Origin: Sulfurimonas sp. SAG-AH-194-C21
GTDB lineage: Bacteria > Campylobacterota > Campylobacteria > Campylobacterales > Sulfurimonadaceae
NCBI RefSeq assembly: GCF_029215985.1
Contig: NZ_JAEMVC010000001.1
Coordinates: 1 to 64,000, forward strand
Reading direction: 5' to 3'
DNA length: 64,000 nt
In this document: piece by piece, positions 6,571 to 33,808 of the stretch
How positions within the stretch are numbered: the stretch's first letter is position 1
How the letters are laid out: every line of letters starts with the position of its first letter
Program-made: the position numbers and the translations under genes
The notes under the pieces: generated by a model
The model's input: the letters and a program-made list of their open reading frames with translations, nothing else
Databases searched by the model: none
What the model was told of the DNA's origin: nothing

Positions 6571-8642
6571 TGAGCATACATGATGATGAGGACTTACTCT
6601 TTAGTGGTGATGAGTCACAAGATTTAGAAGAACAAAATATTATAGAGAAAGAAACTTGGAAAATATTAATTGTTGATGATGAAGTAGAAATGCACACCAT
6701 AACAAAACTCACACTTGTAGGCTTTGAGTTTAACGAAAAAACTTTAGAGTACCTTCATGCATATAGTGCTACAGAGGCTGAGGGTATCTTAAAAGAGCAT
6801 GATGATATTGCCCTTATTCTTTTAGATGTTGTAATGGAAAATGACCATGCGGGGCTTGATTTAGTCAAACATATACGTAATACACTAGATAACCACAATA
6901 CCCGTATTGTTTTACGTACGGGTCAAGCAGGACTTGCCCCTGAGAGAGATGTGGTAACAGAGTATGATATAAATGACTATATCAACAAGTCAGAACTCTC
7001 AGCTGATAAACTTTTTACAATTTTAATGGCAAGTTTACGATCGTATAGAGATATTATCTACCTAGAAAAAGGGCGCATTGAACTAGCACAAGCAAATAAA
7101 ATACTTGCAGATCAGCACAAAAGAACACAACTCACACTGGAGTCTATTGGGGATGCAGTTGTCACAACTGACACACAAGCTAATATCACCTATATGAATA
7201 AAACAGCAGAGAGACTAACGGGATGGACTAAAGAAGATGCTATGGACAAAAAGGTCTCAGAAGTTCTTCACATCATCAACTCTTACACAAAAGAAACTGT
7301 AAGAAACCCTATTTATAAAGTGCTCGAGGACTTAAAAGTAGCACTGCTTGATACACATAGTATACTCGTTTCTAAAGATGGTTTAGAATTTAATGTCTCT
7401 GATAGTGCAGCACCTATTTTTGATAGTAACAATGAACTCGTTGGTGCGATTTTAGTATGTCATGACATTACCGAAGCCTACCAGATAGAAGAGGCACTAC
7501 GACGTTCTCAAAAGATGGAAGCAATTGGTCAACTCTCCGGTGGAATTGCCCATGATTTTAACAACCAACTCGGCGTAGTTGTTGGTTATCTGGATTTTTT
7601 AGAAGAGGAGTATGAGGAGGGAGATAAACAACTGAAGTGGATACGGACTGCTATGAAAGCTTCGCAGCGTTGTATAGACTTAACTAAACAACTACTCTCC
7701 TTTTCAAGAGTAAAAACAAAAGATAAAACTACCCTCAATGTTAATACTGTTATCAAAGATATGGATATGATGCTTAAACGTTCTATAACGCCTGAGATAG
7801 AGTTAGAAGTAGTGTATGAAGACTCATCATGGCTTGTTGATATTGATGCGGGTGAACTCCAAGACGCTATTTTAAATCTTACTATAAATGCGAGGGATGC
7901 TATGCCAGATGGTGGAAAGTTACGCATAGAAACAGCGAACAAATACCTTGATGCAGCATATATCCGTCTGCATTCAGAAAAAATATCAGGAGAGTACTGT
8001 GAAATCACTATTAGTGATACCGGTACAGGAATGAGTAAAGAAACTTTAGAGAAAGTATTTGAGCCATTTTTCACTACTAAAGATAAAAGCCAAGGGACTG
8101 GACTTGGCATGTCTATGGTTTACTCCTTTATGCAAAGATTTGATGGATTTGTGCATATTTACTCAGAAATAGGCTACGGTACAGAGATAAAACTCTATCT
8201 CCCTAAATCAAAGTTACACAAATCAAAAAGCACAATCTCAGTAAAAAGTGATATCCCACACGGTAAGGAAAAAATTCTCGTAGTAGATGATGAAGAAGAT
8301 TTACTAGACTTAGCGACACACTATTTAGAGAGTTTAGGATATACTACTTTTAAGGCATCTTGTGCTGCTGATGCCCTTGAAGTACTAGAAAAAGAAAAGG
8401 ATTTTGACCTTCTATTTAGCGATGTAGTTATGCCTGGTGGTATCAATGGTTATGAACTTGCTGTACAAGCACAAAATGTACAAAAAGATCTTAAAGTATT
8501 ACTAACATCAGGGTTTACATCTAAGAGTATTTTAGAGAGTGTTCAAGAAAAACTGTATGAAGAGCTCTTGACAAAACCTTATAGAAAAATCGATTTAGCA
8601 AAAAGAGTCCGTAAAATTTTAGATGAGGGGGGGGGAAAGTAA
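6570..8642 (+). CDS. Hybrid histidine kinase: REC-PAS-HisKA-HATPase-REC
   Basis: 690 residues, no membrane helix, so cytoplasmic. An N-terminal receiver has D36-D37, phospho-acceptor D86 (LILLDVV), T117 and K140. A PAS domain (about 178-300) includes TQANITYMNKTAERLTGWTKEDA. The histidine box SGGIAHDFNNQLG carries H328 and the HATPase domain has SDTGTGM and GTGLGMSMVYSF. A C-terminal receiver (about 565-685) has ILVVDDEEDL and D618 in FSDVVMP. The ATG overlaps the upstream stop by one base, implying coupled translation with the membrane kinase. The HDFNNxL box and a C-terminal receiver fit a self-contained phosphorelay node. The last codons contain a run of nine G. Confidence 0.9.
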   Translation: MSIHDDEDLLFSGDESQDLEEQNIIEKETWKILIVDDEVEMHTITKLTLVGFEFNEKTLEYLHAYSATEAEGILKEHDDIALILLDVVMENDHAGLDLVKHIRNTLDNHNTRIVLRTGQAGLAPERDVVTEYDINDYINKSELSADKLFTILMASLRSYRDIIYLEKGRIELAQANKILADQHKRTQLTLESIGDAVVTTDTQANITYMNKTAERLTGWTKEDAMDKKVSEVLHIINSYTKETVRNPIYKVLEDLKVALLDTHSILVSKDGLEFNVSDSAAPIFDSNNELVGAILVCHDITEAYQIEEALRRSQKMEAIGQLSGGIAHDFNNQLGVVVGYLDFLEEEYEEGDKQLKWIRTAMKASQRCIDLTKQLLSFSRVKTKDKTTLNVNTVIKDMDMMLKRSITPEIELEVVYEDSSWLVDIDAGELQDAILNLTINARDAMPDGGKLRIETANKYLDAAYIRLHSEKISGEYCEITISDTGTGMSKETLEKVFEPFFTTKDKSQGTGLGMSMVYSFMQRFDGFVHIYSEIGYGTEIKLYLPKSKLHKSKSTISVKSDIPHGKEKILVVDDEEDLLDLATHYLESLGYTTFKASCAADALEVLEKEKDFDLLFSDVVMPGGINGYELAVQAQNVQKDLKVLLTSGFTSKSILESVQEKLYEELLTKPYRKIDLAKRVRKILDEGGGK
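8627..8635 (+). repeat. Homopolymer of nine G at the end of the hybrid kinase gene and in the ribosome-binding site of the next gene
   Basis: Nine consecutive G lie eight codons-bases before the ATG at 8643, in very AT-rich surroundings. They encode the Gly-rich C-terminus of the kinase and are also the only Shine-Dalgarno-like sequence for the EAL gene. Poly-G tracts of this length are the classic slippage sites behind phase variation in Campylobacterota. Gain or loss of one G would only change the last few kinase residues but would alter stop position and spacing to the next start. Confidence 0.75.
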
Positions 8643-9824
8643 ATGAATAAGAATGTAGTAATTGTTGTCGATGATGAAGTAGATTTAGCAACATTTGTTT
8701 GTGAAGTTGCAACTGAACAAGGGTTTGAAAGTCATGCTTATCATAATGGTAATAAGTTTTTAAAAGAGTATGATTTTAAAGCAGATGTAATTTTTTTAGA
8801 CTTAATGATGCCAGACATTGACGGTATTGAAGTTATTCGTCACTTAGGAGAACATAAGTGTACTACACAGTTAGTACTGATGAGTGGTGTTGATAGTTCG
8901 ATTTTACACTCAGCACAACAACTTGCACTAGCCCAAGGTTTAAATATTATCACCACTATCACTAAACCTATACGACTAAAAGAGCTTAAACATATACTAG
9001 ATAATATTTCTAAACATATCCATCTCTGCCCAGTGATTCAAGAAAACAAACGAATAGATGCAGAAGACTTAAAAAAAGCATTTATAGATGATGAACTTGT
9101 AGTCTACTACCAACCAAAACTAGACTTACATGATGCTAATGTCTTAGCCGTTGAGGCTTTGGTTCGATGGAAACATCCAACTAAAGGTTTAATCCCACCA
9201 ATGGATTTTATCAGTATTGCAGAAGAGAACAATCTTATAGATGAACTTACATGGATTGTTTTAGAAAAATCATTGCAACAGTGTGCCAAATGGAATCAAG
9301 ACTCCTTAGAAGTTAAAATTTCTGTAAATATGTCAGCTATCACACTCAAGGATTTAACGATTCCCGAGTTTATTACTAAAATGCTCAAAAAGTATAAGGT
9401 CAAACCTTCACAACTTATGCTAGAAGTAACAGAGTCTGCCCTAATGGAAGAACTCATTACATCTCTAGATATTTTAACAAGACTTCGACTCAATGGTATC
9501 GCATTATCAATAGATGACTTTGGAACAGGATACTCTTCGCTAATGCAACTACATCGTGTGCCATTTTCTGAAATAAAGATTGACCAATCTTTTGTAAAAA
9601 ATATAAGTAATGATCCAGAGTCTTTAGCAATTGCCGAGACTGTACTTATGCTAGGTCATAAACTAAACATGTCTGTAGTAGCAGAAGGTGTTGAAGATGT
9701 AGCCGTTCTACAAATATTAAAAGATATGGGATGTGATAAGATTCAGGGGTATTATATACAAAAGCCTCAAGAGGCTGATATAATTACGAAATGGTTAAAG
9801 GAGAGTTCTAAAAGATTTGGCTAA
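8643..9824 (+). CDS. Response regulator with EAL c-di-GMP phosphodiesterase domain
   Basis: 393 residues. The receiver (1-125) has D10-D11, phospho-acceptor D53 (VIFLDLMMPD) and K in ITKPIR. The EAL domain (about 145-385) keeps the catalytic motifs: VEALVRWKHP, SVNMS, EVTESALME, IDDFGTGYSS, KIDQSFV, VAEGVED and QGYYIQKP. All metal and substrate ligands expected of an active phosphodiesterase are visible, so it should hydrolyse c-di-GMP to pGpG under receiver control. It starts at the base after the hybrid kinase stop, so the two kinases and this protein likely form one operon and pathway. Confidence 0.9.
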   Translation: MNKNVVIVVDDEVDLATFVCEVATEQGFESHAYHNGNKFLKEYDFKADVIFLDLMMPDIDGIEVIRHLGEHKCTTQLVLMSGVDSSILHSAQQLALAQGLNIITTITKPIRLKELKHILDNISKHIHLCPVIQENKRIDAEDLKKAFIDDELVVYYQPKLDLHDANVLAVEALVRWKHPTKGLIPPMDFISIAEENNLIDELTWIVLEKSLQQCAKWNQDSLEVKISVNMSAITLKDLTIPEFITKMLKKYKVKPSQLMLEVTESALMEELITSLDILTRLRLNGIALSIDDFGTGYSSLMQLHRVPFSEIKIDQSFVKNISNDPESLAIAETVLMLGHKLNMSVVAEGVEDVAVLQILKDMGCDKIQGYYIQKPQEADIITKWLKESSKRFG

Positions 9825-16302: not shown

Positions 16303-17489
16303 TCTTTGTCCATCCTTTGTATATTGTCCATGTTGACTCTGTTTGAAGCCATAAGCACCATTCCAACACCAAACGCGGAGCCAAGCATAACAGAACCACC
16401 ATAAGAGAGAAAAGGCACACTAATACCTTTAATAGGGGTAATTCCACTAATACCGTAAGCATTTACTAAAAAGGCAAAAGATAAAATGAGTCCTATACCT
16501 ATACTAAAAAGATAAACACTTTTATCCTCTGCACGGTTTGCGATTTTAAATATACGCTGCAACATCCAAAGAAAAATAAATACCACAAACGCCACACCTA
16601 TAAAACCAAACTCTTCAGCAAGACCAGCTAAAATAAAGTCCGTATGAACCTCTGAAAGAAAGCCGAGTTTAAAAGTGCCATTTCCAATGCCAACACCAAA
16701 AATACCACCATTGTTAATGGCGTTTAAAGAGTGCCCTATCTGGTAAGGCTCAACCTCAACTGGTACTCTAAGCTTTTCTGCCAAACTCTCTGGTAGTACC
16801 TCTAAGACAGAGTTTTGTGCTAATGCCCACCATGATTTTATACGAATGATTCTATGTTCAGCAGTAACAATAAATATCATCACAGCCATAAAAATTCCAC
16901 CTAAGATACTCAGAAAAAAACGGAAGCTACTTCCAGCAAATATCAACATAAAAAGAAGTGTCAGACCTAAAACAACAACCTGCCCTAAGTCTTTTTGTAA
17001 AAACGCGATGATAAACATTGCCCCTATAAAAATAACACCATAAGGAATAAAGCGCTTAAACTCATTTGTTATGCCCATTCCATCATGATGCCCTAATTTA
17101 CGAGAAAAACTCCATGCGAGAAAGTAGACAAAACCTACTTTAAAAAATTCTACAGGTGCCAAAGAGAAACCTGATACCTTAATCCAGCGTTTTGCACCAC
17201 CAACTGCTGACACCAAAGACTCTGGTAAAAAAGGCATCATTATCATAAGTGCTAAAGAGCCAAAGAAAAGTAAAAAACCAATTGGGGTAAGCCATACATC
17301 AGGGTCTAACCGAGAAAGAATAAAGATAATACTAATACCCATTACACCAAACGCAGCTTGGCGAATAGCAAAATGAAACTCATTTACATTAAATAAAAGT
17401 GTCGTATACGAGGCTAAAGTGTATGCAAGTAACACACTTATACCGATTAAGATACTCACTAAGGTGAAAAGTTTTTTATCTGCACTCAT
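16299..17489 (-). CDS. ftsW: FtsW/RodA/SpoVE family peptidoglycan glycosyltransferase
   Basis: 396 residues with about ten membrane helices. Family motifs include GGAKRWIKVSGFSLAPVEFFKVGFV, QKDLGQVVVLGLTLLFMLI, HTDFILAGLAEEFGFIG and the C-terminal PIKGISVPFLSYGGSVML. These SEDS proteins polymerise lipid II. Immediate coupling to murG favours FtsW (division) over RodA, although the two cannot be fully separated by sequence alone. It follows the 17494 gene after four bases. Confidence 0.93.
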   Translation of the reverse strand: MSADKKLFTLVSILIGISVLLAYTLASYTTLLFNVNEFHFAIRQAAFGVMGISIIFILSRLDPDVWLTPIGFLLFFGSLALMIMMPFLPESLVSAVGGAKRWIKVSGFSLAPVEFFKVGFVYFLAWSFSRKLGHHDGMGITNEFKRFIPYGVIFIGAMFIIAFLQKDLGQVVVLGLTLLFMLIFAGSSFRFFLSILGGIFMAVMIFIVTAEHRIIRIKSWWALAQNSVLEVLPESLAEKLRVPVEVEPYQIGHSLNAINNGGIFGVGIGNGTFKLGFLSEVHTDFILAGLAEEFGFIGVAFVVFIFLWMLQRIFKIANRAEDKSVYLFSIGIGLILSFAFLVNAYGISGITPIKGISVPFLSYGGSVMLGSAFGVGMVLMASNRVNMDNIQRMDKE

Positions 17490-20353: not shown

Positions 20354-20701
20354 TTACAGAGCCAAATGCATTAGAAGTTTTCTATTTACCTCTGATATTT
20401 CTTCTTCACTTAACTCTGTTAATAAGCTTTCTAACTTAATTCGTGACATATCTAAAGTGCAAAGCTCATTAATGCAGATTTCACTTCTCTCTTCTAATTT
20501 ATCGCGTTTTTCGATACAAACTCGCAAGTTACCTTGACTGATTCTCGAAGTAAGTGGAATTAATGTCACTCCTTTAAAATCTACTTTATCAATGTTTCTG
20601 TTTGCTATGTCATTTTGGATGATAAGTGCTGGTCTTACCTTTCCAAACTCACTGTTGTACTTTTTTCCAAAATTTACTAGGTATATCTCACCGCGTTTCA
20701 T
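20354..20701 (-). CDS. MazF/PemK family mRNA interferase toxin
   Basis: 115 residues beginning MKRGEIYLVNFGKKYNSEFGKVRPALIIQND, the classic MazF/PemK start with the RPxLI(I/V)QN strand, followed by LIPLTSRI and a conserved serine/threonine and arginine environment. The C-terminal half (ICINELCTLDMSRI) matches the dimer interface of the fold. It is a sequence-specific endoribonuclease by family. The start is one base beyond the antitoxin stop overlap (ATG overlapping TAATG), so translation is coupled to the antitoxin. Confidence 0.88.
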   Translation of the reverse strand: MKRGEIYLVNFGKKYNSEFGKVRPALIIQNDIANRNIDKVDFKGVTLIPLTSRISQGNLRVCIEKRDKLEERSEICINELCTLDMSRIKLESLLTELSEEEISEVNRKLLMHLAL

Positions 20702-21974: not shown

Positions 21975-22004
21975 AAGAGTTAGAAAACTTCTTTAACTCT
22001 TTTT
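21975..22004. terminator. Bidirectional terminator between the 21447 gene and the kinase cluster
   Basis: AAGAGTTA and TAACTCTT pair around an eleven-base loop, with T5 on the plus strand side and A-rich sequence on the other. It overlaps the last codons of the kinase gene. Confidence 0.6.
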
Positions 22005-24476
22005 AGCTGTAAAATCTTGAACAGTTGAGATAAAAATATTTTTATCTAAAGGTTTAGTAAGATACCCATCCATTCCTGCATCTAAAAACTTTTCTCTATC
22101 TCCTCTAAATGCATTTGCCGTTAGGGCTACAATTGGTGTATGTTGAAGGTTCTGCTCTTTTTCATAACGAAGTATCTCTTGTGTGGCTTTAATTCCATTC
22201 ATGTTAGGCATATTTTCATCCATGAAAACCAAATTATATTTACTACTTTTAAACATTTCAATCGCTTCTAGTCCATCATTAGCAATATCAAATTTAATAT
22301 TTACCTTTTTAAATATGACTCTCATAAAAAGCTGGTTACTCTTGTTGTCTTCAACTAGAAGTATTTTTAGATGAGAAAAATCAACATGTTTATTTACTAT
22401 TTTTGGAGTACTAACAGACTTTCCTATTTGTAGCGGTAGTGAAAAATAGAACTCACTCCCCTCACCTAATTTACTTTTAACATTAAGTTTTCCACCCATT
22501 AGATTCACTAATGAGCTTGATATTGAAAGTCCTAAGCCTGTGCCACCATACTTACGAGTAGTTGATATATCGGCTTGCGTAAATGACTCAAAAATTGTTT
22601 TTTGATACTCTTGGCTTATCCCTATTCCCTCATCTATTACAGATATACATAAGGCTTTATCTTCATACTTGAGATTTAAGTATATATTTTTATTTTCGGC
22701 TGTAAATTTGATAGCATTACTTAAAAGATTATTTATAACCTGTTTGATACGTAAAGGATCACCAACTAAAGCCTCTGGCATATTCTCAAAAGTAACATGT
22801 AACTGTATACTTTTTTCACTACACTTACTTGAAAAAAGATCTCTTGTCGCATTAAATTCATTGACTGGATTAAAGTCATGATAGTCAATATCTAGCTTAC
22901 CACTTTCAATTTTAGAAAAATCCAATATATCGTTAATAATTTGGAGCAGTGATTTACTAGAGTTGTCTATAATGTCTAAGTAATTAAGATTTTCATGCTC
23001 CTCTTTGAGTAGTTTTATAAAACCCATAATTGCATTGAGTGGTGTTCTTATCTCATGAGACATATTTGCTAAAAACTGCTCTTTAGATTTTTCAGCATCA
23101 ATCGAGTGTAAAATTGCTTGGTAACCTGCTAACTTGTTTTCTTCATTAAGTTTAGGGTATATGCTACACCTAACCCAATAAGAACCCACTTCTCTAAATT
23201 TATATTGACAGTCACCCTTCCAAATATTTCCGCTACTGAGCGTTTCTTTTATTTGAATATTTACTATATTATTTGTTTCATTTGTATGTAGCCTTGCAAA
23301 GGAAACACCTAAAAGTTCTTTTTTTGTGTAACCACTCATAACTAAGAGTGACTGTGTGATATAACTTATCTTACCATCTAAGTCACATTCCCATGCCATT
23401 ACATTGCTAGTAAAAAGTTCTACTTGACGTAAGAGGTCTAAGCTCAATTCGTTAATTTTACTTTCAGACTTGATTTGTTTCAATATAAAATAAAAGATAA
23501 GTAGCGAAATCAGTAATGAAAAGATTCGAATTAACTTAGATGTAAATAATATAGACTGAATTGTTTCTGAGTTAGTATAAGAGACAAACCATGCGACAGC
23601 CTCTTTGTTTATATTTTTCACAGGTAAAAATGAATATATTATTATATGCTTTCCATCACCAGAATAAGAAGAGAAGGCTTTTCCTGCTGCCATTTTGAAT
23701 AATATTGCTTTTTTCACACTTGTATCGTTTAATATCTTATGAGCACAAGGTCTCTTTTCCTTTTCTGAGAGAGTTTCAGCTAATACAAAACCTCTGTTTT
23801 CTACACTCTGAACATACTTTACAACTAAGTCGTTCTTTTTGAAAGTCTTATTTTCTATGAGTTTTTTATTTATTAAAAAACTTGCATGTAATTTCCTAGT
23901 ATTGTTTAAGTACTTTATAACATCATCACTTGAAAAAGATATCTCCATAGAACCAATATGTTCACTTCCTTTATATACTGGAAATATATTTCTAAAACCA
24001 TGAGATGTTCTTCCTTGCGAAAACACACCTAGTTGTTTTTTTGTTCTATTGGTATATTCAAAATCTTTTCTAATGCCAGTTAAATCATCTCCAAATTTAT
24101 CTACCTTATGCATACGTAAAAAAGAGATGTTATTTTTATCTACAAACTGTATTTGTAAGACCCCTTGTGTTTTCGCATCATTATAGTCTCTTAGGACTTG
24201 CATATATAATTTGGCTCTATTTTGTTTTTGTATCTTTGGACTGAGGCTTGTGTCTAGTAGTGTTGAGACATCGGAGCTTCGTAAAATATTTTTATGAATA
24301 GCAAACGCGATGTTTTTTTGAACAGACAAAAGTAGTTGATAATGTGTCGTTAAGGCATCAATATCTTCTTGAATTTCATCATTTGCGATGTTTTGTATAT
24401 TTTTTTCAGTTAAGATATAGACTATACTATTTGTAAGTAGTAATAGCATTAGTAGTAGTATTATTTTTTTCTTCAT
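21993..24476 (-). CDS. Membrane hybrid histidine kinase: periplasmic sensor (Cache-like)-PAS-HisKA-HATPase-REC
   Basis: 827 residues from the ATG at 24476; a TTG at 24509 would add 11. The first helix (IILLLMLLLLTNSIVYIL) and a second one (RIFSLLISLLIFYFILK) bracket about 290 periplasmic residues. This region has AKLYMQVLRDYNDAKTQGVLQIQFVDKNNISFLRMH and GFRNIFPVYKGSEHIGSMEISF, the pattern of double-Cache-like domains that bind small ligands. A PAS domain (MAWECDLDGKISYITQSLLVMSGY), HisKA with MSHEIRTPLNAIMGF, HATPase with DEGIGI and GTGLGLSIS, and a C-terminal receiver (LLVEDNKSNQ, VFMDENMPNMNG, TKPLDK) follow. Last gene of the signalling operon; no output domain, so it likely passes phosphate to the HPt protein at 31451. 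Confidence 0.9.
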   Translation of the reverse strand: MKKKIILLLMLLLLTNSIVYILTEKNIQNIANDEIQEDIDALTTHYQLLLSVQKNIAFAIHKNILRSSDVSTLLDTSLSPKIQKQNRAKLYMQVLRDYNDAKTQGVLQIQFVDKNNISFLRMHKVDKFGDDLTGIRKDFEYTNRTKKQLGVFSQGRTSHGFRNIFPVYKGSEHIGSMEISFSSDDVIKYLNNTRKLHASFLINKKLIENKTFKKNDLVVKYVQSVENRGFVLAETLSEKEKRPCAHKILNDTSVKKAILFKMAAGKAFSSYSGDGKHIIIYSFLPVKNINKEAVAWFVSYTNSETIQSILFTSKLIRIFSLLISLLIFYFILKQIKSESKINELSLDLLRQVELFTSNVMAWECDLDGKISYITQSLLVMSGYTKKELLGVSFARLHTNETNNIVNIQIKETLSSGNIWKGDCQYKFREVGSYWVRCSIYPKLNEENKLAGYQAILHSIDAEKSKEQFLANMSHEIRTPLNAIMGFIKLLKEEHENLNYLDIIDNSSKSLLQIINDILDFSKIESGKLDIDYHDFNPVNEFNATRDLFSSKCSEKSIQLHVTFENMPEALVGDPLRIKQVINNLLSNAIKFTAENKNIYLNLKYEDKALCISVIDEGIGISQEYQKTIFESFTQADISTTRKYGGTGLGLSISSSLVNLMGGKLNVKSKLGEGSEFYFSLPLQIGKSVSTPKIVNKHVDFSHLKILLVEDNKSNQLFMRVIFKKVNIKFDIANDGLEAIEMFKSSKYNLVFMDENMPNMNGIKATQEILRYEKEQNLQHTPIVALTANAFRGDREKFLDAGMDGYLTKPLDKNIFISTVQDFTAKKS

Positions 24477-24542
24477 GTTCGGAATTTTACTATAAGTCTT
24501 TAAATACAAAACTTTAAAAATTAAAAAACAAAAATATTTTAG

Positions 24543-27266
24543 TTAAATTTGAGTTTTATTGTGGAAATACATTTCAAATATTCTTATCAAGTTTTTCTTA
24601 TTTAAAGGTTTAGTTAAATACTCATCCATTCCTGCTTCTAAAAATCTTTCTCTGTCGCCCTTTAAGGCATTTGCAGTTAATGCAACTATAGGGGTATGCT
24701 CAAGACCTAACTCTTTTTCAAGTTCAATTATTTTCTTAGTAGCTTCAATACCATTCATATTTGGCATATTCTCATCCATCAAGATAAGATTATAATCATT
24801 TTGTTTAAATGCATCTATGGCATCTAGTCCATTCCCAACTATCTCATAAGTGACCTTCAGTTTTTTAAGAATAACCTCCATAAACATTTGGTTAGTCTTA
24901 TCATCTTCAACTAAGAGCAGTTTTAATCCAGTAAAATCTTGTAAAGGTCTCTCTGATACACTCTTAGTGCTATCTTTTACACTCTCTAATGGTAAGCTAA
25001 AATAAAACTCACTCCCAACGCCAAGCTCGCTTGTAACCTGCAACTCACCACCCATTAACTCTACTAGTTTAGTGGATATACTCAGACCCAATCCAGTACC
25101 ACCATACTTGCGTGTTGTTGTACTATCTGCTTGAGAAAAAGAATCAAATATTTTCTTCTTGTACTCTGGTGTAATTCCGATGCCCTCATCCTTAACACTC
25201 ACATGTAGCATTTCGTCCCTGTATTCTATGTTTAAAAATATATGCTTATTTTTTGGTGTAAACTTTATGGCATTGCTTAAGAGGTTATTAACAACCTGCT
25301 TTATTCTTAAGATATCGCCCTTTAAGTAGTGTGGTAAGTTACTAAAAGATATCTCTAGTTGAATACTTTTTTCTTCACTCTTTGCGAAAAAGAGGTCTTG
25401 AGTGGATTTAAACTCATAACTGGGGTCAAAGTTTATAGACTCAATATCGAGTTGTCCATTCTCTATCTTAGAAAAATCTAAAATATCGTTAATTATATTT
25501 GTCAAACTCTGACTAGAACTGTTTATAGTTTTTAAATATTTTAACTTTTCTTCATCTGCTTCCTGCTCAGTAAGAATTCCTATAAAGCCCATTATGGCGT
25601 TTAAAGGTGTTCTAATTTCATGAGACATATTCATCAAAAACTCTGACTTGGCAGTTGAGGAAACTACGGCCATCTCTTTTGCCTTAATTAGCTCTATCTC
25701 ATTTTCTTTTCTTTGTGTTATATCATGCCTGATTGCTATATAGTTCTTTATCTCTTCATTTTTATCTAAAATTGGAACTATTGAACTATCTACCCAGTAT
25801 AAAGAGCCATCTTTTGCTCTATTGCAAACTTCGTACTTCCATATCTTCTTTTTTGCAATAGTTTTATGCATCGTGGCCCAAAAATCACTATCGTACATGC
25901 CTGAGTTGACTACACTATGAGTCTTACCTAAAGTCTCTTCTTTTGAGTATCCACTTATCTCAACGAACTTATCATTTACATAGATTATTATGCCATTCGT
26001 ATCTGTTACAGTGACTATAGAATGCTCATCAATAGCCCTTTTATACTCTTGGAGTTGTCTAAATATATCTTTATTTTCTTCTAAAATTTTTACTGTTTGA
26101 GATATATTATCGTTAATAATTTTCGACATAGCAGCCAACTCATCCCCAGAACTATCATCAAGATAAGGAACTTTTTCACTTTTTTTATTTAGATAATCAA
26201 AAAAACCAAGTAGACCTTTTTGTAATTGAGAAAACTGTTTGTTTATAGTTTTACGGAGTAATATCGATGCTATTATTGAGATAATGATAACACTGAGCAG
26301 TGCTATAAGCCCAAATAGTTGAAGAGAACCTGTTGCTTCTACAGATTTTTGTACTTCACTATGCATTAGTTGTCTTTGATTTTGTAGCATCTCATGTAAG
26401 GTCTTTCTAATTTTTTCTGCAGTTGGAGCAGCTTTTGTTTTTAGTAAATAGTTTGAAACATTCCACATTTGTGATCCACGAATATCAAACATTTTCTTTG
26501 GTAGAGGAGTAAATTTCTCTCTTGCTAGACGGTATTTATCAAAATATTTTTTCTGTTTTTTATTTAAAAAACCTACTCTATTCTCCAAACTCAAAAAATT
26601 CTTTGTATTTCTCTTCCATGATTTGTAAAATGATGTTTGAAACTTCTTGTCTCCTGAGAGTAAGTATGCTCTAATATCAGCTAAAGACATAGCTGTTGTT
26701 CCATGAAGATCTGCCATAAATCCAAGTAGTACTTTTCTCTCATAACTTGCAGGTTCTTGTAACTCCAAGTCAATTATCTTTTCCATACTATTTGTTAGTA
26801 TTCTAGTTTGAGGAATAGCCTCGTCAAAAAGAATTTTTAAAGCAGGTTCGTTCTCTGGGGTATGTGCAATGTCTTCTATATCTTGTTGATATTTTTTAAA
26901 CTCTTTAAAAAGAGGAGTAAGTCTATGAAACTTCTCAATATTTTGAGGATTTGTCCATCTTTGAGATAGTTCAGTTAAAATTTCTAAGGCTGGTTCTATA
27001 TCTTCTTGCCAGGCAAAAACTCTTTCAAACTTAGACTCTTCCTCACCTAAAATTATCCATGCTCGAAGACTTCCAAGAGAGTGATTAACACCATTAAGTA
27101 AACGAGTATTTTGTTCTACTGTAGGAAGTCTTAAGTGACGGATACTCTCTCGTATTGTGTTAACCTCAGTAATTTTTATACTGTTTATCATTATAAAAAT
27201 AGTAGTAAGGATTGTTATAAGCCCAAATCCAAGACTTATCTTATGCCCTAGAGTCAACTGTTTCAA
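24543..27266 (-). CDS. Membrane hybrid histidine kinase: long helical periplasmic sensor-HAMP-like-PAS-HisKA-HATPase-REC
   Basis: 907 residues from the TTG at 27266, chosen because a perfect GGAGG lies six bases upstream; another TTG at 27287 has none. A first helix (GFGLITILTTIFIMI), a large all-helical periplasmic region of about 290 residues containing two similar-looking halves (LGSLRAWIILGEEE and MSLADIRAYLLSGDKKF), and a second helix follow. The layout fits a helical bimodular type sensor. The PAS (IVTVTDTNGIIIYVNDKFVEISGY), HisKA (MSHEIRTPLNAIMGF), HATPase (DEGIGI, GTGLGLSIS) and receiver (LLLVEDDKTNQ, LILMDENMPNMNG) are intact. It overlaps the upstream gene by 26 bases. Confidence 0.88.
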   Translation of the reverse strand: MKQLTLGHKISLGFGLITILTTIFIMINSIKITEVNTIRESIRHLRLPTVEQNTRLLNGVNHSLGSLRAWIILGEEESKFERVFAWQEDIEPALEILTELSQRWTNPQNIEKFHRLTPLFKEFKKYQQDIEDIAHTPENEPALKILFDEAIPQTRILTNSMEKIIDLELQEPASYERKVLLGFMADLHGTTAMSLADIRAYLLSGDKKFQTSFYKSWKRNTKNFLSLENRVGFLNKKQKKYFDKYRLAREKFTPLPKKMFDIRGSQMWNVSNYLLKTKAAPTAEKIRKTLHEMLQNQRQLMHSEVQKSVEATGSLQLFGLIALLSVIIISIIASILLRKTINKQFSQLQKGLLGFFDYLNKKSEKVPYLDDSSGDELAAMSKIINDNISQTVKILEENKDIFRQLQEYKRAIDEHSIVTVTDTNGIIIYVNDKFVEISGYSKEETLGKTHSVVNSGMYDSDFWATMHKTIAKKKIWKYEVCNRAKDGSLYWVDSSIVPILDKNEEIKNYIAIRHDITQRKENEIELIKAKEMAVVSSTAKSEFLMNMSHEIRTPLNAIMGFIGILTEQEADEEKLKYLKTINSSSQSLTNIINDILDFSKIENGQLDIESINFDPSYEFKSTQDLFFAKSEEKSIQLEISFSNLPHYLKGDILRIKQVVNNLLSNAIKFTPKNKHIFLNIEYRDEMLHVSVKDEGIGITPEYKKKIFDSFSQADSTTTRKYGGTGLGLSISTKLVELMGGELQVTSELGVGSEFYFSLPLESVKDSTKSVSERPLQDFTGLKLLLVEDDKTNQMFMEVILKKLKVTYEIVGNGLDAIDAFKQNDYNLILMDENMPNMNGIEATKKIIELEKELGLEHTPIVALTANALKGDRERFLEAGMDEYLTKPLNKKNLIRIFEMYFHNKTQI

Positions 27267-28839
27267 GAAATACCTCCAAGGTAGCAACTAATTGTTTTTT
27301 GTTCAGGGGTTTAGTAAGATACTCATCCATTCCAGCCTTAAGAAATCTTTGCTTATCACCATTTAGTGCATTTCCTGTGAGTGCAATAATCGGAGTATGT
27401 TTTAACTTCTCTTTTTTTTCAATGACTAAAATATGTTTTGTTGCTTCAATACCACACATAATAGGCATATTTTCATCCATAATGATAACATCGTATTTAA
27501 ATTTTTTAAACATTTCTATAGCTTCTTCACCATTTTTTGCTAAATCATAGGTTAAGTTTAACTTTTTAAATAAAATACCCATATATACTTGGTTAGCTTC
27601 AGTGTCTTCAACTAAAAGTACATGACTGCCATCAAAGTTTACATTATCTTGCTTTGACTTTTTTGTAAGTTCTTTTGTCTCTTTCATTCCTCGATTTATA
27701 TTTTTACTTTTTATAAAAAATATAAATTCACTCCCCTTGCCTAACTCACTTTTTAGTTCAATATTACCACCGAGAAGTTGTGCGAGTTTTTTAGATATAC
27801 AAAGTCCTAGTCCTGTTCCACCAAACTCTTTTGTCGTTGTAGAATCTGCCTGCGTAAAAGGTGTAAATATCTCTTTTTGATACTCTTTAGATATACCGAT
27901 ACCATTATCTTTAACACTAAAGACGATGTCCGTACCTCTCATATATACACTCAAGACAATATTTGTACTATCTTTTGAAAACTTCACCGCGTTACTGAGT
28001 AAATTTGACAAAATTTGACGAACTCTTAAAGGGTCACTATCTGATGTTTTTAGCATATCATTTGCTATATTTATATCTATACGAAGATTATTTTCATTTG
28101 CTTTAGCACTAAAAAGGTGCACAACTTGTTCTACAGTTTTACGTATATCCATAGCTTCGATATTAATAGCAAGTTGTTCACTATCAATTTTATCAGAATC
28201 CAATATGTCATTTACAATAGATAATAAAGACTCATTATTATTTTTAATGATATCTACATAGTAAAGCAGAGTTTCATCATCAAAATCTTCTTGGATGATA
28301 TCTATAAAACCCATACTTGCATTAAGTGGTGTTCTGATTTCATGGCTCATATTTGCTAAGAATGTTGATTTTATTTTATTTGCTTGGATAGCTTCTGCTT
28401 TAGCTTTTTCTAATGCTGTGTAAGATTTTTCAAGTTTAAACTTATCATAAAGAATGTCTATGATTTTTTCAAAAGCATTCTCAACTTTTTCATAATTTAT
28501 CGGTTTTAATATATATCCAGATACACCTAAGTCAAGAGATTTTTTTAAATAATCAGCATCATTAAATGCACTCATAATTAAAATAGGAACATCTTTTGAA
28601 ATTTTTCTTATAGACTCTATCATTTCTAGACCATTCATTTCGGGCATTTGAATATCAGTTAGAACTATGTCATACTTTCCTTGTGTAAACTCATTTAAAC
28701 CTTCTTTACCGTTACTCATATGGGTTATATGCTTAAATGAGTATGCCAACATATCACACATATCTTGAGATATATCATTCTCATCCTCTACATACAATAA
28801 TGATAAAGTGTCGATAAATGCTTGTTTATTATCTGGCAT
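27241..28839 (-). CDS. Cytoplasmic hybrid histidine kinase: REC-HisKA-HATPase-REC
   Basis: 532 residues from the ATG at 28839; an in-frame TTG at 28848 is less likely because the GGGA motif would sit too close. The N-terminal receiver has LLYVEDEND, DIVLTDIQMPEMNG and KPINYEK. A helical connector leads to HisKA (MSHEIRTPLNASMGF), HATPase (KDNGIGI, GTGLGLCIS) and a second receiver (LLVEDTEANQ, VIIMDENMPIMCG, TKPLNKK). No membrane helix, so it is cytoplasmic and must receive input through its N-terminal receiver. Eight to seventeen bases separate it from the upstream receiver gene. Confidence 0.92.
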   Translation of the reverse strand: MPDNKQAFIDTLSLLYVEDENDISQDMCDMLAYSFKHITHMSNGKEGLNEFTQGKYDIVLTDIQMPEMNGLEMIESIRKISKDVPILIMSAFNDADYLKKSLDLGVSGYILKPINYEKVENAFEKIIDILYDKFKLEKSYTALEKAKAEAIQANKIKSTFLANMSHEIRTPLNASMGFIDIIQEDFDDETLLYYVDIIKNNNESLLSIVNDILDSDKIDSEQLAINIEAMDIRKTVEQVVHLFSAKANENNLRIDINIANDMLKTSDSDPLRVRQILSNLLSNAVKFSKDSTNIVLSVYMRGTDIVFSVKDNGIGISKEYQKEIFTPFTQADSTTTKEFGGTGLGLCISKKLAQLLGGNIELKSELGKGSEFIFFIKSKNINRGMKETKELTKKSKQDNVNFDGSHVLLVEDTEANQVYMGILFKKLNLTYDLAKNGEEAIEMFKKFKYDVIIMDENMPIMCGIEATKHILVIEKKEKLKHTPIIALTGNALNGDKQRFLKAGMDEYLTKPLNKKQLVATLEVFLETVDSRA

Positions 28840-28856
28840 AATACACAAGTCCCATT

Positions 28857-30050
28857 TTAAAAGAAACCAAGGTCATCATCATCAAAAACTTCATCAGATT
28901 CAACTCCTACACTATAAAACATTGACTCAATTTCAAAGGCACCATTAGAAAATGAGGCATCAAAGTAGTAAATATTACTCGCTGTTTGATCAATAAAAAT
29001 AGTTTTAATCCAATTAGATATATCTTTTTCAACATTGAGTAAAAGACTTACTAATAACATCTTTTTCTCACTATTTTGGAGATCTTCTTCTTTTATATTA
29101 TGTATAAATTCATTTAAGTTCATAAACGCTCGATGAATTATTGGGAAAACCACTAAACTATCTATAATTTTTAAAAACTCATCAATATAAGCTGACACCC
29201 GCCCTAAAGATACGATTGACTCCGATGCACTACAACTTTCTATTAGGTCTAACTCTACAACAAACATATCTAAAACCTCTGTAAAGTTCTCTATCTTATC
29301 AATGATAGTATCATCAAGTTGTTCTAAAAGTTTTTCGGCACTGAGTTGATAATCAGCAGTAGAAAAACGCAAGTCTTTTTCATGTGCTTCATTAAGAGTA
29401 ACCTTCTTTTCAGATAACAAAACCTTACTCTTTTGTTCTTCAATAATTACATCAGTTTTTCCCACAAGAGTATTGAGCATAGCTATTACATCTTGTGCTT
29501 CTTTATTCTCAGATATAGCTTCTAGTTTATCTATTATAAATTTATAATGATTTTTATACTCCATCTCCTTAGTTACTACATCTTCTAAATCAGCTATATA
29601 ATGGCTTAACTCTTTTTTTTCAGCTATCTTTTTTAAAACTCTATAGAGCAAAATAAATAGTTTTTTATTATTTACAGGTTTTGGAAGTAATCCATCTATG
29701 AAATAATATGCTAAATCTTGATTTTTAACTATGTCTGTAGTTGCAGTGATTACAATAATACTTTGATCCATACAACGATCTCTAATGTTTTTTACAAGCT
29801 CTAAGCCGTCCATTATAGGCATATCTACATCTGTGATAATTAGGTCATAATAATTTCTATCTTTATTGTACATATCTAACGCTATCTGCCCGTTTAATGC
29901 CACATCACAAACATTAAAGTACTTTCCAAACGCGACCTTATAAAAGTCTATGTTTGCTGATTGGTCTTCTACTAAAAGTATTTTCATATCTCGTGCATAT
30001 GACTTTACTAAAGGGGTGATTCTTTTAACTACTTCATCTAATGTATCCAT
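28857..30050 (-). CDS. Response regulator with unrecognised helical output domain
   Basis: 397 residues. The receiver (about 20-140) is complete: ILLVEDQSA, LIITDVDMPIMDG, T in ITATTD, and LPKPVNNKK. Residues 140-397 match nothing I know. They are helical and acidic: a coiled coil (LEDVVTKEMEYKNHYKFIID), then segments such as DKIENFTEVLDMFVVELDLIE, VSLGRVSAYIDEFLKIIDSLVVFPIIHRAFMNLNEFI, and an end rich in Asp (EVFDDDDLGFF). The centre could be a degenerate HPt or four-helix bundle, although no HxxKG motif is seen. It sits between the HD-GYP regulator and the hybrid kinases and is likely part of the same pathway. Confidence 0.75.
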   Translation of the reverse strand: MDTLDEVVKRITPLVKSYARDMKILLVEDQSANIDFYKVAFGKYFNVCDVALNGQIALDMYNKDRNYYDLIITDVDMPIMDGLELVKNIRDRCMDQSIIVITATTDIVKNQDLAYYFIDGLLPKPVNNKKLFILLYRVLKKIAEKKELSHYIADLEDVVTKEMEYKNHYKFIIDKLEAISENKEAQDVIAMLNTLVGKTDVIIEEQKSKVLLSEKKVTLNEAHEKDLRFSTADYQLSAEKLLEQLDDTIIDKIENFTEVLDMFVVELDLIESCSASESIVSLGRVSAYIDEFLKIIDSLVVFPIIHRAFMNLNEFIHNIKEEDLQNSEKKMLLVSLLLNVEKDISNWIKTIFIDQTASNIYYFDASFSNGAFEIESMFYSVGVESDEVFDDDDLGFF

Positions 30051-30060
30051 CTATTTACTA

Positions 30061-31461
30061 CTAATCCTTGTATCTCTGTTGTATTTCTAAAAATTTATCT
30101 ATATTCTCTAAAAAAAGATTGATTAAAGAAGCATCAAAATGTGTTCCTCGTCCATCTTTTAACAAGTCTAGTATTTTTTCTAAAGGCCATGCTTTTTTAT
30201 AACATCTATCAGCACCCAAAGCATCAAAAACATCACAAATAGCCGTTATACGACCATATATATGAATTTCTTCACCTTTTAGGGCTCTTGGGTATCCACT
30301 TCCATCCCATTTTTCATGATGTTCATAGGCTACTATAGCTGATGTTTTAAGTATCTCTCGTTGTGAGTTTTTAAGCATATCGTAACCGAGTTCAGCATGT
30401 GTTTTCATAATCTCAAACTCATCAAAATCCAGCTTCCCTGGTTTGTTTAAAATATTATCAGGAATACCGACTTTTCCTATGTCATGCATAGGAGATGCTA
30501 ATCTCAACAACTCTGATTCTTCTTCACTTAAACCAGCTAGTCTAGCCAAGGTATAAGAGTGATTTGCAACACGTTTTACATGGTTTCCTGTCTCTTTACT
30601 TCTAGTCTCACCAATTGCACCCATAGTATACACAATCTCTTTTTGAGTATCTACTATTTCTGATACTGCCAAATCTAACTGTGCTTTTAAGTCTTCTTTA
30701 TAAAGTTCTAACTCTGTTATATCATGTCTAATACTTATGTATTCAATAATCTCATCATTGAGGTCTAAAAGAGGAATAATGACACTATTGACCACATACT
30801 CTGTACCATCTTTGGCTCTGTTTGTAATGATTCCCTGCCATCGTTTTTTCGAGCTTATAGTTTTCCACATATCTATAAAAGTTGCTTGAGGTGTTTTTTG
30901 TGAACGAAGAATTCTATGGTTTTGACCTAGCAACTCTTCTGCACTGTATTTTGAAATTTTACAAAATTCTGGATTAACATAAGTGATGTTTCCGTCTTTA
31001 TCACTCTTAGAGACTATTGCCGTTTCATCTATACTACTTTTATACTGACTCAACAAGGTTTGGTTTAAGGCAGCCTCTTTTTGTTGTGATACAAGTTCAA
31101 AACTTTCATTTAAAATACGCATAAACTTTTTAGGACGAATAGGTTTTGCAATAAAATAGTTTATATGGAGTTCAATTGCACGGATTAAATCATTTCTATT
31201 TTCTAAACCTGTCACCATTATAAAAATCTGCTTGTCATTGATTTTTTTGATATGTTCGATGAGTTCAAAACCATTTATGATGGGCATAATCATGTCAGTA
31301 ATTACAAGATCAAAAGATTTTTGTGTATAAATATCTAATGCCTCTTCACCGTTAGAAGCAAAAGTAACATTTTGTATATCATTTTTTTCAAATATAACTT
31401 TGACAAAATCACAGACAGAAGAGTCATCCTCTACATAAAGTATACTGATACTATTTTTCAT
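30061..31461 (-). CDS. Response regulator with PAS and HD-GYP c-di-GMP phosphodiesterase domain
   Basis: 466 residues. The receiver (1-125) has ILYVEDDSS, LVITDMIMPIING and AKPIRPKK. A PAS domain (about 145-260) has ETAIVSKSDKDGNITYVNPEFCKISKY. HD-GYP residues are all present: SPMHDIGKVGIPDNIL, MKTHAELGYDML, AYEHHEKWDGSGYPRALKGEEI and ITAICDVFDAL. By family it hydrolyses c-di-GMP to GMP. It overlaps the HPt gene by 11 bases, suggesting that HPt passes phosphate to this regulator. Confidence 0.92.
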   Translation of the reverse strand: MKNSISILYVEDDSSVCDFVKVIFEKNDIQNVTFASNGEEALDIYTQKSFDLVITDMIMPIINGFELIEHIKKINDKQIFIMVTGLENRNDLIRAIELHINYFIAKPIRPKKFMRILNESFELVSQQKEAALNQTLLSQYKSSIDETAIVSKSDKDGNITYVNPEFCKISKYSAEELLGQNHRILRSQKTPQATFIDMWKTISSKKRWQGIITNRAKDGTEYVVNSVIIPLLDLNDEIIEYISIRHDITELELYKEDLKAQLDLAVSEIVDTQKEIVYTMGAIGETRSKETGNHVKRVANHSYTLARLAGLSEEESELLRLASPMHDIGKVGIPDNILNKPGKLDFDEFEIMKTHAELGYDMLKNSQREILKTSAIVAYEHHEKWDGSGYPRALKGEEIHIYGRITAICDVFDALGADRCYKKAWPLEKILDLLKDGRGTHFDASLINLFLENIDKFLEIQQRYKD

Positions 31462-31774
31462 TCTTCAAACCATTAATTAAGAGATTTAGTTTCTCATATA
31501 GTACAAAATAATCTATATTTTTTTCTTCCATAGCATTGAGTTCTAACTCTCTAGCAAGATTTCCGACATCATCAAGGAGTAAGTTTAAGGCACTTCCCTT
31601 TATGGCATGTGCACTGTTTGTAATCCCCTTAAAATCATCTATTTGTATCGCTTTATCCATAAAATTTAAGTTTGTTTTTGCATTTTCTAAAAAAGAATCC
31701 ATTATCATTTCAACATCTTCTAAGTCAAATTCTAATTCATCTGCAATTTTTTGTAAGTCAATTTTATAGCTCAA
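31451..31774 (-). CDS. Histidine phosphotransfer (HPt) protein
   Basis: 107 residues, all helical, with NSAHAIKGSALNL near the middle, the HxxKG motif of HPt domains whose histidine accepts phosphate. A start at TTG (31774) has GGA eight bases upstream. Stand-alone HPt proteins shuttle phosphate between the receivers of hybrid kinases and response regulators. It is the only HPt visible in the window and sits at the head of an operon with three hybrid kinases, making it the likely hub. Confidence 0.9.
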   Translation of the reverse strand: MSYKIDLQKIADELEFDLEDVEMIMDSFLENAKTNLNFMDKAIQIDDFKGITNSAHAIKGSALNLLLDDVGNLARELELNAMEEKNIDYFVLYEKLNLLINGLKNEK

Positions 31775-31803
31775 TTTTTTAGTCCAATATGAAATTTTTT
31801 GTA

Positions 31804-31809
31804 ATTATA
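31804..31809 (-). promoter_or_regulatory. -10 box TATAAT for the HPt operon
   Basis: GTTGTATAATTAC on the minus strand lies about 30 bases before the HPt start and after the end of the double-receiver kinase gene. Confidence 0.5.
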
Positions 31810-31819
31810 CAACAAAATG

Positions 31820-33709
31820 TTATTGTAACGGTAACTTGATTTTGAATGATGCACCCGATAGTGTGTTCTCAACCTCTAGTTTTCCCTGCATATGCTCTTC
31901 TATAATGGTTTTAGACATATAAAGTCCTATCCCCGTTCCATTACTTTTTTCTTTTGTTGTAAAATAAGGCTCAAAGATTTTCTCCATTATATTTTCTGGT
32001 ATGCCACCTGCGTTATCATCTATAATTATACTTACATAGTGAGTGTCACTTTGAACTGTTATACTTATTTCACCATCTTGAACTTCATTGAGAATGATGG
32101 CATCTTTTGCATTTGCTATGATATTTAAGACTACTTGAGAGAGCTCATTTTTAAAACATTGAAACTCTACATTACTTTTAATATGTCTAGTTATTGTTAT
32201 ATTGTTCTTTATAAGTGTGGCTTCTATAACATTATTTGCTTGATCTAAAACATCTGTTGGGGTAACTAAACTTAACTTTTTATCGCTCTTAAAAAAGTCT
32301 CTAAAGTCATCTATTGTTTTAGACATCTGCTCAATAATTCGTATTGCTTTTTGTGTAGAACTTGTCATTAGTTTTTCGTTTAGATCTTCTTTTTTATAGG
32401 CTAAATTTAATTTCTGAAACATTATACCAAGAGAGCTTAAAGGTTGTCTCCACTGATGCCCAATATGACCTATCATTTCACCCATTGAAGCCATTTTAGA
32501 CTGCTGGATAAGCATCTTGTTTTGTTCCCAGTTCTTATGAACTTCATACTCAATCTTTTCTTTTAAATCACTCTCTTTTTGCTCTAAAAGTGTCACATCA
32601 AAACCGATAACAAGAATTTCATCAATCTCATCTTTCTCATTTAAAAGTGGTGTAAATGTTAAATTTAAAGAGACATACTGTAGATGAGAATTTTTAAAAG
32701 AAAAAACATCCTTAAATGGTTTTTTCTCTTGTAGTGCATCTTTTAAACCATCAATACTAACTCTATTCTCTTCACTAAGATACTCTTTAAAGTTCACATT
32801 TTCTATGAGGTCACTATCATCACAGAGTAGTTCGCATAAGCTATCATTCGCATATGTAATTGTAAAATCATTACTCATTTTAAAAAATATAGCAGCCTTA
32901 TCAATAGCCTGATTATACATTTCAAATCGAGCTTCATGGCGTTTAATTTGGCGCTGTTGCTTTAAGTCTTCCATCATTTTATCAATTCTTAGAATCAACT
33001 CTTCATTTGCATAAGGTTTTTTAATAAAATCACTTGCACCATTTTTAATAACTCTTGCTATTTTATCAGGGTCTGTTGTTCCTGAAACCACCATAATAGG
33101 CATAAGAAGGTTTCTTTTATCTCTCTTGATTGCACCTAAAAGTTTGTTTCCGTCCATTACAGGCATCTCAAGATCAATAATAGCACCATCTATTTGATGT
33201 TTTTTTATAACTAGTAGTGCTGCTTTTCCATCAACTGCATCGTAAACCTTAAAGCCGCGTTTGGAGAGAAGTATTCTTAACTGTGTTCGCATAAACCTTG
33301 AGTCATCAACAACTAACACACTTAAATGATGGTTCGTTGAAACACGTTCTATAAGTTGTACGATAGAGAGTTCCATATCTGCGAAATAGCGCTCTTTGGT
33401 TATATAGTCTATGACTACACCATAGTTAAACAGATGTTCACGTCTCTGCTTATCTCTATCAGATGTCATAACTATAACTCTAATCTCTTCATGAATCTGT
33501 AAATACGGCAGTACGTCTTCACCCACTCCATCAGGAAGCTCTAAGTCAAGCAGAGCATAGTCAAAACTTCTATCTTGTAAAATACTCTTAGCAGTTGTCA
33601 CATCAAAAGCCTGCACAACTTCATAACCTCGGCTACTTAAAGATTGTGTTAAAGAATTATTTATTAGTTTAGAATCGTCTATTATTAGTATTGAAAATTT
33701 ATTTTTCAC
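31820..33709 (-). CDS. Cytoplasmic histidine kinase: REC-REC-PAS-HisKA-HATPase
   Basis: 629 residues from the GTG at 33709, which has GGAG five bases upstream; an upstream GTG at 33715 adds two residues. Two receivers in tandem are present, the first with LIIDDSK and YALLDLELPDG, the second with LVVDDSRFM and AIIDLEMPVMDG plus KKPYANE. A PAS domain follows (FFKMSNDFTITYANDSLCELL). The histidine box GHIGHQWRQPLSSLG is the type typical of Campylobacterota kinases, and HATPase_c has DDNAGGIPE and NGTGIGLYMSK. No membrane helix. It receives rather than passes on phosphate through its N-terminal receivers, so it may integrate inputs from the other kinases. Confidence 0.92.
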   Translation of the reverse strand: MKNKFSILIIDDSKLINNSLTQSLSSRGYEVVQAFDVTTAKSILQDRSFDYALLDLELPDGVGEDVLPYLQIHEEIRVIVMTSDRDKQRREHLFNYGVVIDYITKERYFADMELSIVQLIERVSTNHHLSVLVVDDSRFMRTQLRILLSKRGFKVYDAVDGKAALLVIKKHQIDGAIIDLEMPVMDGNKLLGAIKRDKRNLLMPIMVVSGTTDPDKIARVIKNGASDFIKKPYANEELILRIDKMMEDLKQQRQIKRHEARFEMYNQAIDKAAIFFKMSNDFTITYANDSLCELLCDDSDLIENVNFKEYLSEENRVSIDGLKDALQEKKPFKDVFSFKNSHLQYVSLNLTFTPLLNEKDEIDEILVIGFDVTLLEQKESDLKEKIEYEVHKNWEQNKMLIQQSKMASMGEMIGHIGHQWRQPLSSLGIMFQKLNLAYKKEDLNEKLMTSSTQKAIRIIEQMSKTIDDFRDFFKSDKKLSLVTPTDVLDQANNVIEATLIKNNITITRHIKSNVEFQCFKNELSQVVLNIIANAKDAIILNEVQDGEISITVQSDTHYVSIIIDDNAGGIPENIMEKIFEPYFTTKEKSNGTGIGLYMSKTIIEEHMQGKLEVENTLSGASFKIKLPLQ

Positions 33710-33731
33710 TTCCACTCCACAAAAATATGTT

Positions 33732-33737
33732 ATTATA
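33732..33737 (-). promoter_or_regulatory. -10 box TATAAT for the double-receiver kinase
   Basis: GATTATAATAAC on the minus strand lies about 23 bases before the start codon; a second weaker AT-rich box lies 11 bases further upstream. Confidence 0.45.
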
Positions 33738-33808
33738 ATCTTATTATATAGTAAAAATCTTATTTATTCATAGTGGACAAAGGAGTACAAAAAAAATTAC
33801 AAAAAATT

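Follow-up and report, generated by a model that had tools for sequence, protein, structure and literature searches.

Gene content of the island

We analyzed a 64,000-nucleotide stretch of the Sulfurimonas sp. SAG-AH-194-C21 genome (contig NZ_JAEMVC010000001.1, positions 1 to 64,000; hereafter, the window). The genome assembly of this host comprises 2.2 Mb in 103 contigs and is 88% complete. Seven open reading frames, all on the minus strand, are nearly contiguous in the window and are transcribed from 33715 to 21993. According to Pfam, the first gene (31820–33715, minus strand) encodes a REC-REC-PAS-histidine kinase, which has an HQWRQP-type H-box and no C-terminal receiver. It is followed by the gene for a 107-aa stand-alone HPt protein (31451–31774, minus strand; Pfam Hpt, 6e-10), in which the phospho-accepting His, H56, lies in the sequence HAIKGS and fits the conserved HxxKG motif. 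The third gene (30061–31461, minus strand; Pfam HD_5, 1.6e-31) encodes a REC-PAS-HD-GYP c-di-GMP phosphodiesterase, whose catalytic motifs HDIGK and HHEKWDGSGYP are intact. The fourth gene (28857–30050, minus strand) encodes a response regulator, here called REC-UNK, in which a receiver (residues 24–132) precedes a C-terminal domain (UNK; about residues 205–397, encoded at 28857–29441 on the minus strand) that is predicted to be a five-helix bundle and ends in an acidic FF tail, DDDDLGFF.

The remaining three genes, all on the minus strand, encode hybrid kinases with Pfam architectures REC-HisKA-HATPase-REC (cytoplasmic; 27241–28848), 4HB_MCP-PAS-HisKA-HATPase-REC (membrane-bound, with a four-helix-bundle sensor; 24543–27287; Pfam 4HB_MCP, 8.6e-8) and dCache_3-PAS-HisKA-HATPase-REC (membrane-bound; 21993–24509; Pfam dCache_3, 4e-10). 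The H-box SHEIRTPL is intact in all three, and no fused HPt domain was detected in any of them by Pfam. The phospho-acceptor Asp motif is present in every receiver of the cluster.

The gaps between the genes, in the order of transcription, are 45, −11, 10, 8, about −47 and 33 bp. The 11-bp overlap places the start of the HD-GYP gene over the stop of the HPt gene. The overlap of about 47 bp between the cytoplasmic kinase gene and the 4HB_MCP kinase gene shrinks with a later TTG start preceded by GGAGG; this TTG, several codons inside the reading frame, is probably the true start. No intrinsic-terminator-like site was found between the seven genes, and the only one detected lies inside the upstream recD2 gene. 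We considered recD2 as a member of the operon and rejected it; in the closest genome (locus L201) the first four genes keep the same order several genes away from recD2, suggesting that recD2 is probably outside the operon.

A first-pass annotation, made by a model from the letters and a list of open reading frames, had described the seven genes as a near-contiguous set on one strand, and the coordinates, gaps and absence of an internal terminator agree with this. Pfam likewise reproduced the domain architectures it had given for all seven proteins, with catalytic residues intact, as well as the lack of HPt domains in the three hybrid kinases; the overlap of the HPt and HD-GYP genes, also described there, was confirmed and recurs in another species (L065). 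Its statement that the cluster relies on a single HPt is correct within the cluster but not genome-wide, where seven HPt proteins, including six others, pass the Pfam cut-off and about three are small stand-alone proteins.

The window holds a second signaling cluster on the plus strand (3532–9824), which encodes a histidine kinase of 1012 aa whose N-terminal part is acidic, a 690-aa REC-PAS-HisKA-HATPase-REC hybrid kinase and a 393-aa REC-EAL-like phosphodiesterase. In addition, a 115-aa protein that by eye resembles a MazF/PemK-type toxin is encoded at 20354–20701 on the minus strand.

Conservation of the neighborhood and the partners of the HPt

We compared the island with the corresponding loci of related genomes. 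In L201, the first four genes are collinear with those of the window at 88, 73, 90 and 86% identity up to the contig end, so that the first kinase has its 88% ortholog at the equivalent place. L100 (Sulfurimonas sp. SAG-AH-194-I05) shows the order kinase-HPt-HD-GYP (70%)-REC-UNK (54%, over the whole length)-kinase, which is the same gene order as in the window. A PASx3 kinase, the HPt and the HD-GYP protein (72%) are encoded in L065 (genome G140), where the last two genes have an equal 11-bp overlap. The order in L064 (G144) is HPt-NIT-HAMP kinase-REC-SpoIIE-HD-GYP (63%), and L066 (G149) has the same arrangement minus SpoIIE, namely HPt-kinase-HD-GYP. L110 encodes REC-UNK, HPt, a kinase, a REC-EAL-like protein and a REC-REC-HisKA protein in this order. 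Overall, HD-GYP orthologs with 63–90% identity lie close to the HPt in five relatives (L064, L065, L066, L100 and L201), and HPt orthologs share 48–53% identity in L064, L065, L066, L100, L110 and L161. L064, L065 and L066 lack REC-UNK. The kinase inputs differ at each locus and include PAS repeats, NIT-HAMP, dCache and the four-helix bundle.

Judging from these gene orders, the conserved core consists of a hybrid kinase, the stand-alone HPt and the REC-PAS-HD-GYP protein, often joined by REC-UNK, and the kinase inputs are swapped freely. Conservation of all seven genes as one set is not supported: three to five of them are kept as neighbors, and variation is found in the first kinase and among the sensor kinases. 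The view of the first-pass annotation that such a complete set in one cluster is unusual is likewise not supported, as similar islands with multiple kinases and one HPt occur at L071, L072, L145 and L110. The first three of these, in which one stand-alone HPt lies among several hybrid kinases, belong to a different genus of the family. A separate observation concerns the rate of change: in L201 the HPt ortholog (16376–16699) is 73% identical and its neighbors are 86–90% identical, indicating that the HPt gene is the fastest-evolving gene of the operon.

We also asked whether the hybrid kinases belong with the HPt. HPt orthologs at E < 1e-17 were found in 4 of 150 family genomes, and the same four genomes give the four strongest matches to the kinase core of the 21993–24509 protein among these 150. 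The probability of this coincidence by chance is 5e-8 under independence of the genomes, which are in fact related, so that its real weight is smaller. A stand-alone HPt lies within 10 kb of kinases with at least 55% core identity in 6 of 12 loci, compared with 3 of 45 for the rest (Fisher p = 0.0015, with loci treated as independent of genome kinship). Note that part of the 45-locus group was chosen for having an HPt, which biases against the observed difference. Several of the distant kinases, and none of the close ones, have a fused HPt; close kinases that lack a fused HPt and lie beside a stand-alone one are what one would expect if this kinase lineage depended on a separate HPt. In G159, two close kinase relatives are on contigs where no HPt was detected, indicating that adjacency is dispensable.

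These comparisons support the model of the HPt as a hub for the three hybrid kinases, which is plausible and better supported than before, if unproven. Because six other HPt proteins and hybrid kinases besides the three of the cluster are encoded in the host genome, the pairing with this HPt need not be exclusive. The other HPt proteins, the variable gene content around the kinase-HPt-HD-GYP trio and the reduction of the set to this trio in L064, L065 and L066 would also fit a loose hotspot of signaling genes, in which the HPt would serve one kinase and the HD-GYP protein, with the other kinases and REC-UNK using other partners. This explanation has to contend with the lack of a fused HPt in any of the three hybrid kinases and with the 64% identity between the kinase cores of the 24543–27287 and 21993–24509 proteins, which therefore look like duplicates and would share a partner. 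Furthermore, the HPt of L100 is still surrounded by REC-UNK and a pair of such kinases. We regard the hotspot as unlikely and favor the shared HPt.

The C-terminal domain of REC-UNK

No family matching the UNK domain was found in Pfam, NCBIfam or PHROGs, and none by sequence search of solved structures. Relatives were detected in 61 of 151 family genomes by a single-sequence search. A profile search across the order, covering 249 genomes, gave 55 with a match, so that most genomes of the order have none. The REC-UNK ortholog of L201 is 86% identical. Many of the members inspected are encoded in chemotaxis operons (gene names were assigned by domain and by eye), where they adjoin CheB, CheR or CheV-like genes or are the first gene of a CheY-CheW-MCP-CheA operon. 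Two more UNK proteins are encoded in the host genome: one is a 154-aa stand-alone protein whose gene adjoins CheB and CheR (L078), and the other, of 575 aa, contains the domain twice (L138). The UNK domain represents a Campylobacterota family that is absent from Pfam and occurs most often in chemotaxis operons. The output that the first-pass annotation had called uncharacterized is indeed without a Pfam family, and it can now be placed in a Campylobacterota family with a tentative role.

Two identifications of UNK with known chemotaxis proteins were rejected. Identity with ChePep was judged by gene order: the genes after the 473-aa UNK form had been supposed to be argS and tatA, but they encode CheY, CheW, an MCP and CheA. 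Identity with CheZ was judged by profile, and Pfam CheZ gave no match in the host genome even at E 10.

An AlphaFold2 model of the UNK domain is a helical bundle (pLDDT 82) with helices at residues 53–78, 81–105, 109–123, 133–160 and 168–188, and a second structure model, built from a distant member, has the same helix layout. Foldseek gave nothing significant with the UNK model (best E 0.46). In a VIA-align comparison, the top four rows were all CheA P1 domains, with Z scores of 13.4, 13.0, 12.2 and 12.0, values that helical bundles can reach by chance. The best row (1i5n) had an rmsd of 2.7 with 127 of 129 residues aligned, and the next row after the four was a designed protein with a Z score of 10.5. 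Note that this structural match is based on one UNK model. Profile comparison gave a weak preference for CheA P1 over five other domains, with the first two helices aligned, and 2 of 100 block shuffles scored as well; against the ordinary HPt family, the UNK profile scored no higher than shuffles did. These results are suggestive of a CheA P1-like, five-helix fold. No conserved phospho-accepting His was found in the P1-equivalent helix B across 40 aligned UNK sequences. The one well-conserved His (34 of 40) is located at the start of the last helix and is a Tyr in the protein of the window. If the P1-like fold is right, the lack of a conserved His in the helix means that UNK would be unable to carry phosphate and would be a pseudo-HPt.

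The second feature of the family is its C-terminus. An acidic stretch followed by x-F-F or a similar ending was found in 63 of 76 UNK proteins, compared with 23 of 1309 other open reading frames of the same loci. These 23 include members of a 349-aa receiver family, members of a 300-aa family mostly encoded beside CheR and CheB, and GGDEF proteins. The tail DDDDLGFF of REC-UNK can be set beside the end of E. coli CheZ, DDLLDSLGF. The C-terminal segment of E. coli CheZ binds CheY, and the UNK tail is predicted to be a receiver-docking peptide. An exact-pattern scan of the host genome for the tail returned REC-UNK and one 130-aa protein only. The gene for the latter is flanked by two CheY-like genes and lies upstream of the gene for a 924-aa CheA (L137, 9690–10082; G000:C38). 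This protein ends in DDEIEFF and contains a CheZ-like DxxxQ motif (YQDIITQ); it is not recognized by Pfam CheZ and is perhaps a minimal CheZ.

Several further tails were observed. GGDEF-type proteins in chemotaxis neighborhoods (L110, 4259–4993; L113, 916–1653) share the acidic EFF ending of the UNK proteins, as though the tail were a transferable module. The 349-aa REC family with this tail (L082, L083, L085, L087 and others) adjoins a kinase and a REC-PAS-HD-GYP protein, and its loci appear to form another HD-GYP module, in a different genus of the family. A different acidic tail, DDIFDF, is present in two proteins of the host genome (L137, 15022–16347; L138, 1866–2777), one of which is a receiver protein near CheA.

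Taken together, UNK may define a previously undescribed family of Campylobacterota, made up of pseudo-HPt adaptors that resemble CheA P1, lack the histidine and end in a transferable tail like that of CheZ, with occurrences on receivers, on proteins that stand alone, on GGDEF proteins and on what may be a mini-CheZ. In the present operon, such an adaptor would connect the phosphorelay and its several sensors directly to the chemotaxis machinery, in parallel with control through c-di-GMP. We advance this proposal tentatively, at less than even odds. A receiver phosphatase of the CheZ kind would also explain the CheZ-like C-terminal tail, the chemotaxis neighborhoods, the helical bundle and a conserved acidic/aromatic patch (D149, W153, Y168, D170 and S172). 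Unlike CheZ, however, UNK has no conserved DxxxQ, the motif being absent from the conserved columns of both UNK alignments inspected (A1 and A3). The fold match, moreover, goes to CheA P1, and the host genome is devoid of Pfam CheZ matches, making the phosphatase quite improbable.

A proposed branched phosphorelay with two outputs

We consider it probable, at roughly 60%, that the operon encodes a branched multistep phosphorelay with a stand-alone HPt and two outputs, a c-di-GMP enzyme and the REC-UNK adaptor. Gene content, intact residues, the conserved neighborhood, the missing His and the tail are directly seen, and from them we infer the phosphoryl flow, its direction and its targets. The two membrane-bound and one cytoplasmic hybrid kinases would phosphorylate their own C-terminal receivers, and the HPt would take phosphate from these three receivers. 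The HPt would then hand phosphate to the receiver of the REC-PAS-HD-GYP protein, changing c-di-GMP hydrolysis, and also to the receiver of REC-UNK. REC-UNK would be an adaptor acting on the chemotaxis or flagellar apparatus, probably through a phosphate-incapable CheA-P1-like bundle and a CheZ-like tail docking on a CheY-type receiver. Control of motility through c-di-GMP is likely, and control through the chemotaxis-type adaptor is hypothesized; motility would be the target of both outputs, in keeping with their encoding in one operon. The REC-REC-PAS kinase encoded by the first gene may be a further input or may itself be controlled by the HPt via its own receivers.

HPt transfer is reversible in known relays and the cluster has more receivers than kinases, so that the HPt might work mostly in reverse, with the hybrid receivers as a sink for phosphate drained from the receivers of the HD-GYP protein and REC-UNK; the sequence offers nothing in favor of this, and the catalytic motifs are intact in all kinases, leaving it a very slim prospect.

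In the forward relay that we favor, the wiring is of a known type, and REC-UNK is the new part of the island. In P. aeruginosa, HptB, a single stand-alone HPt, receives phosphate from several orphan hybrid kinases and acts on a response regulator for motility and biofilm (PMC5085249). The relay proposed here would share this scheme of multiple kinases and a stand-alone HPt. The L064 cluster contains a REC-SpoIIE regulator, and HsbR of the HptB pathway has a phosphatase domain; the G159 kinases on contigs without an HPt are likewise reminiscent of the orphan hybrid kinases of HptB. However, the HptB kinases are encoded away from HptB, whereas the present kinases are clustered with the HPt, and the outputs here are HD-GYP and REC-UNK, with no HsbA-type gene seen. 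The LuxU hub of Vibrio quorum sensing also receives many hybrid sensors on one HPt, but its output is LuxO, a sigma-54 activator, rather than a c-di-GMP enzyme, and its inputs are different. In Xanthomonas, the hybrid kinase RpfC controls the REC-HD-GYP phosphodiesterase RpfG encoded beside it, and control of this kind is proposed here as well. RpfC has its own HPt, whereas here the HPt is a separate gene, the kinases are several, and REC and HD-GYP are separated by a PAS domain.

For the UNK domain, the nearest parallels are ChePep and CheO, chemotaxis proteins found only in Campylobacterota; ChePep is important for the polar localization of CheZ, and CheO binds CheA (its HPt and linker domains, in two-hybrid assays), CheZ and the motor switch (PMC11237671, PMC9665402). 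Like them, UNK would be a lineage-restricted auxiliary chemotaxis protein; a UNK match is lacking, however, in the majority of genomes of the order, so that UNK need not be either of the two. It may instead add another chemotaxis component specific to Campylobacterota.

Sulfurimonas genomes encode very many signaling proteins. The tail and the UNK domain provide a sequence handle on a Campylobacterota-wide, chemotaxis-linked component that is missing from family databases. If the proposed relay is true, this compact operon, which combines a shared HPt, an HD-GYP protein and an adaptor of the chemotaxis type, would offer a tractable system for studying how one swim-or-stay decision is made from several signals.
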